64,000 bases of DNA, taken from NCBI GenBank assembly GCA_022763425.1, contig JALEGD010000001.1, positions 758,572 through 822,571 of the forward strand, read 5' to 3'. The notes under the pieces are model-generated. The model was not told the DNA's origin, searched no databases, and saw only the letters and a list, made by a program, of their open reading frames with translations. How positions within the stretch are numbered: the stretch's first letter is position 1; each line of letters opens with the position of its first letter. The DNA comes from Pelagibacteraceae bacterium (GTDB taxonomy: Bacteria > Pseudomonadota > Alphaproteobacteria > Pelagibacterales > Pelagibacteraceae). Shown here one piece after another: positions 15,001-38,057 of this stretch. The position numbers and the translations under genes are program-made.

Positions 15001-15058
15001 AATAGATTTATATGAATGTTTTTTAAATTTGACATCTATTATTAGTTGTATTATATTA

Positions 15059-15083
15059 TTCCGATAATTAATTGTTATCGGAA
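15059..15083. repeat. Perfect 9-7-9 inverted repeat ttccgataa-ttaattg-ttatcggaa immediately upstream of the integrase start
   Basis: Read directly; ends 2 nt before the recombinase ATG (15086), in the 85-nt gap between divergent genes. Confidence 0.85.
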
Positions 15084-33703: not shown

Positions 33704-35418
33704 TATATATCTGCGTAAGATTTTTTTTCCTGTGAACTACCTGGATGTGTAACAGCTCCATTTGTTGCATCACCAACACTTTGAGCATATTTCCATAAAG
33801 TTCCACTTCCAAAATTTAATTCTCTAGGTTTCCAATTTGATTTTCTGTTATTGATTTCATCATTACTCAAATTAACATTAATTGTACCTTTCTCTGCATC
33901 AATTTCAATTTCATCTCCATCTTTTAACAATCCAATCATTCCACCAACGTGTGCTTCAGGGGAAACGTGTCCAATACAAAAACCTCTTGTTGCGCCAGAA
34001 AATCTCCCGTCTGTAATTAGCGCAACCTTCTCGCCCATGCCTTGTCCATATATTGCAGCTGTTGTTGAAAGCATCTCTCTCATGCCTGGTCCACCTTTGG
34101 GTCCTTCATATCTAATTACAATTACGTCACCTTCGTTATATTTTTTTTCTTTAACCGCTTTAAAAGCATCTTCTTCACAATCAAAACATTTAGCCTTGCC
34201 TTTAAACAACAATGTTTTCATTCCTGCCACCTTAACAATAGCACCACCCTCTGCTAAATTTCCTTTTAAACCAACTACACCACCAGTTGGCGTTATTGGA
34301 TTTGAATGATGTCTAACAACATCTTGATCATCATTAAATTTTACATCTTTCAAATTTTCTTTCATTGTTTTTCCAGTTACTGTTAAACAATCACCATTTA
34401 AGTATCCTCCATCCAACAATGTTTTGAGAAGTAATGGCACACCACCTGCTTCAAATAAATCTTTAGCAACGTATTTTCCACCTGGTTTTAAGTCTGCAAG
34501 GTAAGGTGTTTTTTTGAAAATTTCGGCAACATCCATGATGTCAAATTTTAAACCACATTCATTTGCTATTGCAGGTAAATGGAGTGCTGCATTTGTTGAT
34601 CCACCAGTTGCTGCAACTACAACTGCAGCATTTTTTAAAGCTTCAATAGTAACAATATCTCTTGGCCTAATTTTTTTCTTTAATAATTCCATTACCTGTT
34701 TACCACTTTCAATTGCATATTTATCACGTTCCTCATATGGAGCTGGTGTTCCAGATGAATATGGCAATGCTAAGCCAATAGCTTCAGACACACATGCCAT
34801 TGTATTTGCGGTGAATTGTCCTCCACAAGCACCAGCTGATGGGCAAGCAACAAGCTCAAGTTCTTCAAGTTCTTTGTCTGACATCTTTCCTGCTTCATGC
34901 ATACCAACACCTTCAAAAACGTCTAAGACTGTAACGTCTTTACCTTTAAATTTTCCTGGCAATATTGACCCGCCATACATAAAAACACTTGGAACATTTA
35001 ATCTACACATAGCCATCATTAGACCTGGTAAAGATTTATCACAGCCAGCTAAACCAACTAATGCATCGTAACAATGACCTCGTACTGTTAACTCAGTAGA
35101 GTCAGCGATTATTTCTCTAGAAATTAGAGAGGATTTCATTCCTTCGTGACCCATAGCAATTCCATCTGTAACAGTGATTGTACAAAACTCTCTTGGCGTT
35201 CCATGATTATCGTGAACACCTTTTTTTACACTTTGCGCTTGCCTCATTAAGGCTATGTTGCAAGGAGCTGCCTCATTCCATGTTGATACAACACCAACAA
35301 ATGGTTTAGCCACGTCTTCTTGAGTTAGATCCATAGCATAATAAAAAGATCTATGAGGAGCTCTATCTGGTCCTACTGTTGTGTGTCTGCTTGGTAATTT
35401 AGATTTATCAAATTTCAT
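33703..35418 (-). CDS. ilvD: Dihydroxy-acid dehydratase
   Basis: VALCP-type cysteine motifs ([27 protein letters not shown]), [21 protein letters not shown]. Confidence 0.97.
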
Positions 35419-38057
35419 TTTAAACTTTTTAATATTTCTTGGAGTGTTATATATTCTTTTTTATTTGTATCTAAAAGATTTTTTTCTTGTTTAACAATTT
35501 CTTTAGGCGCTTTTTTTACAAAATTATCATTATTTAATTTATTTTCGCTTGAAGATATTTGTTTTTGTATAGAGTCTAGTTTTTTTTCCAAAATATTTAT
35601 TTGATTATCTATATCAATCTCATCCCCGAAATTTACAACAAATTGCTTACCGGCCAATAATGTTTTTATGTTGCCTTTGTCGTCATCATTAGTATTTAGC
35701 GTAGAAATTCTACCAATCTTGCACAAAATATTTTCATTTTTTTTTATTATTTTTTTTTGGTTATTATCTAAAAATTGAATTCCAACTCTTACTAAACTTC
35801 CAGGTGCAACTTGCATTTTTGATTTAAATGACCTTAGATCATTAATAAAATTAATAATAAATAAAACATCTTTTATATTTTTTGATGATTTACTTTTTAG
35901 ATCTTTTGTAAAATGATGATTTATTAAGTCATTTTTTTCAGTTTTTTTAAAACCTGACAAATTCCAAAGTTCTTCAGTTACAAAAGGAATAAATGAATGT
36001 AGAAGAAGTAAATTTTCTTTCTGAACATGATTTAATACATTTTTTGTCTCAAAAATTAAATTTTTATCTTTTGAATTTAATAAAGGTTTTGAAAATTCGA
36101 TATACCAATCACAAAAATAATTCCATATATATAAATAAAGCTCCTTTGCCGCTTCATCAAACCTAAAGTTTTCAATAAGTTTTTTTATTTTAATTTTATT
36201 TTCATTTAATGTGAAAAGTATCCATTGATTAGCTGGGTTTTTTATATTTTTAATTTTACTTTTTTTAATATTAAAAACATTGTTCATGGAACAATAATTA
36301 AATGTATTCCAAATTTTTGTTAGAAAATTTCTATACCCTTTTACTCTGTCAATTGAGAGTTTAACGTCCCTGCCAGGAGAAGACATTGATATTAAAGTAA
36401 ATCGTAAAGCATCTGCTCCAAATTCTTCTATTATAGTTAATGGATCAATTACATTACCTTTTGATTTAGACATCTTTTGTCCTTTTTCATCTCTAACTAG
36501 GGCATGAACGTAAACTTTTTCAAATGGAACTTCCTTCATAAAATGTAACCCCATCATCATCATTCTAGCTACCCAGAAAAAAATAATATCAAAGCCAGTA
36601 ACTAATACGGAAGTTTTGTAAAATCTTTTTAACTCATAAGTTTTGTTAGGCCAACCCAATGTAGCGAATGGCCATAATGCCGACGAAAACCATGTATCAA
36701 GAACATCTTTATCGCGCTTAAGGTCTAAAATTTTTTTATATTTTTTTTTACAAATTTTGCGAGCTTCTTTAAGATCATTGGCAACTATAATATGACCATG
36801 AGGTGTATACCATGCTGGAATTTGATGACCCCACCATAGTTGACGAGAGATGCACCATGGCTCAATATTTTCCATCCATTGGAAATATGTTTTTTTCCAA
36901 TTATCTGGAAAAAAACTTGTTTCTTTTTTTTTAACTTTTTTTATTGCATCTTTTGCAAGTTTTTTTGCATCTACAAACCACTGTTCAGTAAGCAAAGGTT
37001 CAATAATAGTATTGCTTCTATCACCATAGGGAACGGTATGTTTGATATTTTCAATTTTATCTAAAATGTTTAATTCTTCTAACTCTTGAACAAGTTTTTT
37101 TCTCGCATCAAGCCTATCTAGACCCACATAAGCTTTTGGAACATTCTCGTTCAATGTTCCATCTTTGTTTAAAATATTAATAAATTCTAACTTATTTCTT
37201 GTTCCAACTTGATAATCATTAAAATCATGTGCGGGAGTTATTTTTACTGCACCAGAACCCTGATTAGGGTCGGCATACTCGTCTTTAATAATCTTAATAA
37301 TTCTTTTCGAAATAGGAACAATAATTTCTTCACCAATTAAATCTTTGTATCTTTCATCTTTAGGGTGTACTGCAATCGCGGTATCCCCAAACATTGTTTC
37401 TGGTCTCGTAGTTGCGATTGTAATGCTTTTTTCAGAATTTTTAAATTTATAATTAATATAATAAAGTTTTCCTGAAGTTTCTTTTTGTATAACTTCAAGA
37501 TCTGATATTGCTGTTTTTAATTTTATATCCCAATTGGTGAGCTTAAGATCTTTATAAATTAGTTTTTTATTATACAGATCAACAAAAACCTTTAATACAG
37601 CTTTAGATAATCCTTCATCCATTGTGAAGCGGTCTTTTGACCAATCGCATGAGGATCCAAGTTTTTTAAGCTGTGAAGTAATTGTGTTTCCTGATTTTTC
37701 TTTCCATTGCCAAACTTTTTTTAAAAACTCTTCTCTACCTAAATCATTCCTAGATATACCTTTTTCCGCTAATTGCTTTTCAACAACCAATTGTGTAGCA
37801 ATACCCGCATGGTCAGTTCCTGGTTGCCACAGTGTTTCTATACCTTTGTTTCTATTAAATCTTATTAAAAGATCTTGAATTGAATTGTTCAATGCATGAC
37901 CCATATGCAAGCTACCTGTTACATTTGGCGGTGGAATTACAATAGAATATGTTTTTTTTGATTTGTTTTTTTTTGGTTTAAAACACTTGTTTTTTTCCCA
38001 ATACTTATAAATTCTATCCTCAATATTTTTATGATTGTATGAACCAAAACTAGACAT
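35415..38057 (-). CDS. valS: Valyl-tRNA synthetase
   Basis: [41 protein letters not shown]-terminal coiled coil. Confidence 0.97.

Follow-up and report, generated by a model that had tools for sequence, protein, structure and literature searches.

In Xer/dif, a single-copy, low-GC, intergenic dyad with the inner motif ATAA...TTAT and a 6-bp centre lies at the GC-skew terminus of the chromosome. Streptococci (XerS/difSL) and Helicobacter and Campylobacter (XerH/difH) possess a single recombinase of about 354-362 aa that is linked to the terminus site, and these sites are imperfect, with longer or uncertain centres (PMC5357621, PMC2731167). XerL/dif of Legionellales also consists of a single recombinase outside the classic Xer proteins, together with long uninterrupted inverted repeats. 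It came to light in bacteria for which a lack of dif/Xer had been reported, the gene of the longer XerL (catalytic Y387) lies >400 kb from dif, and an exploiting element has a dif mimic (PMC9765430). Exploitation of the host recombination site is known for IMEX elements such as LME-1 (PMC9765430). Cre/loxP of P1 resolves dimers of a replicon and, like Dre/rox of D6, uses symmetric arms, which in loxP are 13 bp long and surround an 8-bp centre. When located at the terminus, Cre/loxP is able to replace dif in E. coli, and none of the dif-deficient proteobacteria was known in 2009 to use a Cre/lox-like system (PMC2731167). Pelagibacter ubique was reported to lack dif/Xer (Carnoy and Roten, 2009; PMC2731167).

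The window, by which we mean the whole stretch of 64,000 bp that was analysed from a single-contig Pelagibacteraceae (SAR11) genome of 1,211,322 bp, contains the perfect 9-7-9 dyad TTCCGATAA-TTAATTG-TTATCGGAA on the forward strand, two bases (GT) before the ATG of a tyrosine recombinase gene (Table 1). We propose, with a probability of roughly 85%, that this dyad is the chromosome-dimer-resolution site of the Pelagibacteraceae and thus a functional equivalent of dif. This reading draws on the sequence of the site, its conservation, its terminus position, the absence of XerCD, the presence of FtsK-gamma, phylogeny, site-protein co-variation and phage copies. The dyad has the architecture of the dif class, i.e. 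inverted half-sites around a 6-8 bp centre, an intergenic location and a low GC content (7/25). The gap in which it lies measures 85 bp and ends at the start (15000) of a divergent cyclophilin-like gene (PF04126). Like dif, it has the inner ATAA...TTAT and is a single-copy dyad at the GC-skew terminus. Unlike dif, it has a centre of 7 instead of 6 bp and near-perfect symmetry, is linked to the recombinase gene inside its promoter and would be served by one recombinase from outside the Xer clade. The 7-bp centre also distinguishes it from difSL and difH, and together with arms of about 9-14 bp it does not fit the loxP format.

Table 1. Features of the putative dif-like locus, in positions of the window.
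Feature	Position	Strand	Remarks
-35 element TTGACA, recombinase promoter	15029..15034	+	consensus match; TTGAC conserved
-10 element TATATT	15052..15057	+	17 nt after -35; same layout in orthologues
dif-like recombination site (putative), type-A arms	15059..15083	+	single genome copy; 91/91 orthologues; GC-skew flip
left arm TTCCGATAA, predicted recombinase half-site	15059..15067	+	inner GATAA invariant 91/91
7-bp centre TTAATTG, presumed strand-exchange region	15068..15074	+	asymmetric; length invariant across 91
right arm TTATCGGAA, predicted recombinase half-site	15075..15083	+	inner TTATC invariant 91/91
Cre-clade tyrosine recombinase, 307 aa	15086..16009	+	PF00589 E 5e-20; alignment, tree, fold

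The original prediction had described the perfect repeat directly before the ATG and the 85-bp gap, both of which match exactly, and had seen no second full site in the window. Indeed, no further match with up to three mismatches occurs in the window (0.04 expected by shuffling), and the dyad is also single-copy in the whole genome. The window contains three perfect 9-7-9 dyads, two of which have at least three G/C per arm. The other G/C-rich one (37137-37161, TGGAACATT) is located within the valS coding sequence and looks like a chance occurrence. These numbers are what could be said for a chance dyad, or for an intrinsic-terminator or promoter artefact in AT-rich DNA, and the bare dyad at the recombinase gene is indeed judged only mildly unusual. 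What raises it above chance is its conservation, since all 91 distinct orthologues have GATAA-N7-TTATC at the same place. This alone already refutes a chance origin. As the two arms moreover co-vary, a T-run is lacking and phages contain exact copies, such an origin has a negligible probability.

The recombinase gene is present in 124/148 family genomes (73/82 high-quality and 11/11 single-contig genomes) and in all 10 genera, which indicates that it is a core gene of the family. Its orthologue set comprised 91 distinct sequences with 51-66% protein identity, and GATAA-N7-TTATC directly precedes the ATG in every one of them, and positions -12 (T) and +12 (A) are likewise invariant. The original prediction had staked itself on conservation in front of orthologous integrases and survives, as all 91 keep the dyad. 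The centre is TTAATGG in 46 and TTAATTG in 40, next to five rare variants, always with the same length. A whole-genome scan of the 148 family genomes found exactly one copy of the core in 122 and two cores in none, against a total of two matches for the reversed control pattern. Together with the single copy in the source genome, this corresponds to the one copy per chromosome of the dif class. Wherever both could be placed on one contig, the core precedes the recombinase. The remaining 24/148 genomes lack gene and site and are all fragmented assemblies, and XerD was absent from those of them that were checked. Eight fragmented genomes that are 93-99% complete (G016, G021, G027, G038, G049, G058, G119 and G141) are without recombinase, site and XerD; FtsK-gamma was found in G016, G021, G038 and G119, the four of these that were searched. 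In some cases, e.g. in 4/5 sampled genomes of genus g6, the absence of gene and site may reflect either real loss or an assembly gap. Gene and site likewise seem to be absent from genomes of genus g10.

The outer arms occur in two forms in which both sides switch together: type A with TTCC/GGAA (37 orthologues) and type B with ACTA/TAGT (54 orthologues). Residue 232 of the recombinase is K in every type-A and Q in every type-B enzyme. A 12-residue insertion after residue 227 is present in 53/54 type-B and 0/37 type-A enzymes, so that it agrees with the arm type in 90/91, and it adjoins the helix 231-244 of the predicted model. Judged from these sequences, such co-variation is what is expected of a recombinase that co-evolves with its own binding site.

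The location of the site agrees with the terminus location of dif. GC skew was sampled over about one third of each of four genomes round the whole circle and in eight stretches of seven others, with stretches adjoining the site deliberately included. In the four genomes the sampled cumulative maximum and the site lie at 773.0/773.6, 997.5/998.9, 463.5/471.0 and 1011.5/1013.4 kb, i.e. 0.6-7.5 kb apart. In all seven further single-contig genomes the 20 kb that lead up to the site have a positive skew and the 20 kb that follow it a negative one, which brings the sign change at the site to 11/11 single-contig genomes, with the limit that skew near the site partly mirrors gene orientation. The coding strand also flips around the locus in the window. 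Neighbouring genes vary, and the cyclophilin-like gene flanks only 7/92 loci.

The source genome encodes two PF00589 proteins. One is the dyad-linked recombinase; the genome's only other tyrosine recombinase is an island integrase of 450 aa that adjoins tRNA-Arg (G000:C1:1204798). Additional PF00589 matches are sporadic across the family. In 11/11 single-contig SAR11 genomes the XerD model reaches at most 83 bits, compared with 308-325 bits in 11/11 genomes of a sister family (f143) of the same order, 10/11 of which have a second Xer of about 244-258 bits. The PF00589 and XerD-model searches rule out that a canonical XerC/XerD is hidden in the source genome. In E. coli, the FtsK-gamma domain activates Xer and reads KOPS. 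It is present in 55/58 family genomes, as for a dif-class system. The KOPS-like motif GGGNAGGG occurs 19 times on the leading and 3 times on the lagging strand, a weak bias from few motifs that hardly exceeds the expectation from base skew.

The protein contains an N-terminal SAM-like domain, and R156, K183, H255, R258, H281 and Y290 are invariant in 32/32 aligned orthologues. On the basis of Pfam, fold and these invariant residues it is predicted to be an intact tyrosine recombinase. Its gene is annotated xerD in HTCC1062 (PMC5069961); a reading as XerC/XerD homologue is ruled out by tree and scores. The XerD equivalog model scores 83.6 against a cut-off of 329.6, and a tree of 61 proteins splits the XerC/XerD rows from all others at 100/100, with the exception of one very long-branched island integrase on the XerC/XerD side. 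The SAR11 enzymes, a single clade (100/100), group with Cre/Dre, with plasmid proteins and with sporadic proteins of Alphaproteobacteria, the order inside this larger clade being mostly unresolved. The top Foldseek matches of the predicted model (pLDDT 81, pTM 0.63; domain placement approximate) are Cre structures, with an identity to Cre of only about 17-18% in the structural alignment. The SAR11 system thus shares with Cre/loxP and Dre/rox the recombinase clade, the best fold matches and symmetric arms, and with Cre/loxP the proposed role in dimer resolution, and differs from both in that it is a chromosomal core gene with the site in its own promoter. XerH, XerS and XerL were compared by description and stood outside the 61-protein tree. 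The SAR11 system resembles XerS and XerH as a single recombinase linked to a terminus site and differs from them as a Cre-clade protein of 293-334 aa. With XerL/dif it has in common the single non-classic recombinase, the inverted repeats, the reported lack of dif/Xer and a mimic on exploiting elements, and it differs in the shorter protein and the adjoining gene.

Relatives of the enzyme were found in 2263 plasmid records (best identity 40.8%) and sporadically in other Alphaproteobacteria. Several of them have a dyad near the gene: TTCCGATAA-AATTCAC-TTATCGGAA (L396), GTCCGATAA-TTCTCAC-TTATCGGAC (L384), CCGGGATAA-TACTCTC-TTATCCCGG (L382) and, on plasmids, ACTTCCGATAA-TTTAACG-TTATCAGAAGT (L427) and TAACGTTCGATAA-TGTGTTC-TTATCGAACGTTA (L430). 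About half of 14 plasmid loci showed no such dyad near the gene, and 8% of background windows contain a dyad with a length of 9 bp or more. The form GATAA (or GACAA)-N6/7-TTATC (or TTGTC) was seen by the recombinase gene in L396, L384, L382, L383, L427, L430 and L432. We regard the dyads by the plasmid and sporadic alphaproteobacterial recombinases as candidate plasmid resolution sites. A plasmid recombinase-plus-site module appears to have replaced Xer/dif, a direction of replacement that we infer because the plasmid relatives exist and have dyads of the same form.

The mostly plasmid-borne relatives and their sporadic occurrence elsewhere could also imply that recombinase and dyad are the remnant of a mobile element, i.e. 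att and integrase of a prophage, island or integrated plasmid that have no function for the host. This is very improbable, since the pair occurs in 10/10 genera of the family and all 32 enzymes that were aligned keep the catalytic residues. Moreover, neither a direct-repeat partner nor a tRNA adjoins the dyad, cargo genes are lacking, the terminus position is fixed and the real island integrase of the genome is located elsewhere, at tRNA-Arg.

The -10 element ends one base before the dyad in the source genome, and TTGAC precedes the flank start of the site by 22-25 nt in 90/91 orthologues. Since TTGACA and TATATT precede the dyad with kept spacing, the transcription start should fall within the left arm. 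The site thus overlaps promoter and start of its own gene, as an operator does, and because it directly follows the -10 of this promoter, bound recombinase would probably repress its own transcription. Expression has been reported for P. ubique: a gene annotated xerD rises along with recA in light (PMC3090418), and the changes listed for sulfur limitation include an xerD-annotated gene as well as recA (PMC5069961). Since HTCC1062 encodes only one PF00589 protein, the xerD-annotated gene is presumably the dyad-linked recombinase.

The repressor-like position and fixed TTGAC-site distance would also suit a dyad that serves as autoregulatory operator only, bound by the recombinase or by a different dimeric regulator, with the true recombination site elsewhere or another task for the enzyme. 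Cognate site and gene always occur together, and the form of the dyad fits an operator as well, so that its conservation taken by itself is compatible with either role. An operator would have no need of an asymmetric 7-bp centre that is kept in length and nearly in sequence, nor of a terminus position in 11/11 genomes, and a second copy of the core was not found elsewhere in the genomes. We therefore consider an operator without recombination function unlikely. The original prediction had left the choice between recombination site, operator or both. Terminus position, single copy, co-variation and phage copies now point to a recombination site, and the overlap with a conserved promoter in 90/91 favours an additional operator role. 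The prediction did not foresee a terminus dimer-resolution role in a lineage without XerC/XerD.

In scans of viral sequences from IMG/VR, the full 25-bp type-A pattern was matched by 26 contigs and the full type-B pattern by 3. Of 25 contigs with TerL, 23 have the site upstream of this gene, at a distance of about 320-400 bp, and contigs of pelagiphage-type tailed phages are among the carriers (e.g. L178, L190, L243, L291, L357 and L362). Relatives of the recombinase were not found in the site-bearing contigs, nor was PF00589 in the 15 contigs scanned or in the complete isolate HTVC106P. Most contigs are fragments and may have an integrase on a part beyond their ends. That phages have the whole 25 bp while the recombinase gene was undetected again speaks against a mere operator: it is hard to see what a phage would gain from a host operator, and the use of host recombination sites is well known from IMEX elements. 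Among HTVC010P-type isolates, a search near TerL found no site; only HTVC106P contains a degenerate copy, with one base missing. In about half of the 26 contigs a type-B-like half or degenerate site directly precedes the type-A site (e.g. L234, L242, L243, L277 and L362), as if to serve both host types, and HTVC106P (MN698244) shows this near 35406-35439. A search for lysogens found a related TerL in only 5/297 SAR11 genomes, and in G077, the one of these that was placed relative to the site, about 180 kb separate TerL from it and an integrase-type frame is close to TerL. An integrated phage copy was not seen, as none of the family genomes has two cores. The viral contigs resemble IMEX elements and phages with dif mimics (CTXphi, LME-1) in that they have the full host site and, where scanned, no detected PF00589. 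They differ in that the carriers are tailed pelagiphage-type phages, several of which have type-B-like and type-A sites in tandem.

The dimer-resolution role could then work as follows. Homologous recombination would fuse sister chromosomes into a dimer, and at the septum the FtsK translocase would move the two site copies of this dimer next to each other. Two recombinase monomers would bind the two arms of each dyad, cleave it and exchange strands across the 7-bp centre, which would yield two monomeric chromosomes. Enzyme bound at the site might also keep its own transcription low. The module itself would be of the Cre-clade plasmid type, taken from a plasmid in place of XerC/XerD/dif. We are more confident of the dimer-resolution function than of its dependence on FtsK, of an origin from plasmids or of phage integration. 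We see about an even chance for the combined proposal that SAR11 replaced Xer/dif by a domesticated Cre/lox-like module from a plasmid, with a site that doubles as operator, and that integrase-less pelagiphages have copies of both site types next to each other in order to integrate via the host enzyme.

Few bacteria of the ocean are as abundant as SAR11, and with dif/Xer reported absent (PMC2731167) the separation of their chromosome dimers had been an open question, for which a candidate site and enzyme can now be named. The locus suggests that a plasmid Cre-type system is able to replace Xer on a chromosome. Pelagiphages that lack an integrase would have a possible integration route via the host enzyme. 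If the proposed role is true, the Pelagibacteraceae would provide a natural counterpart of the laboratory experiment in which loxP at the terminus rescues dif.
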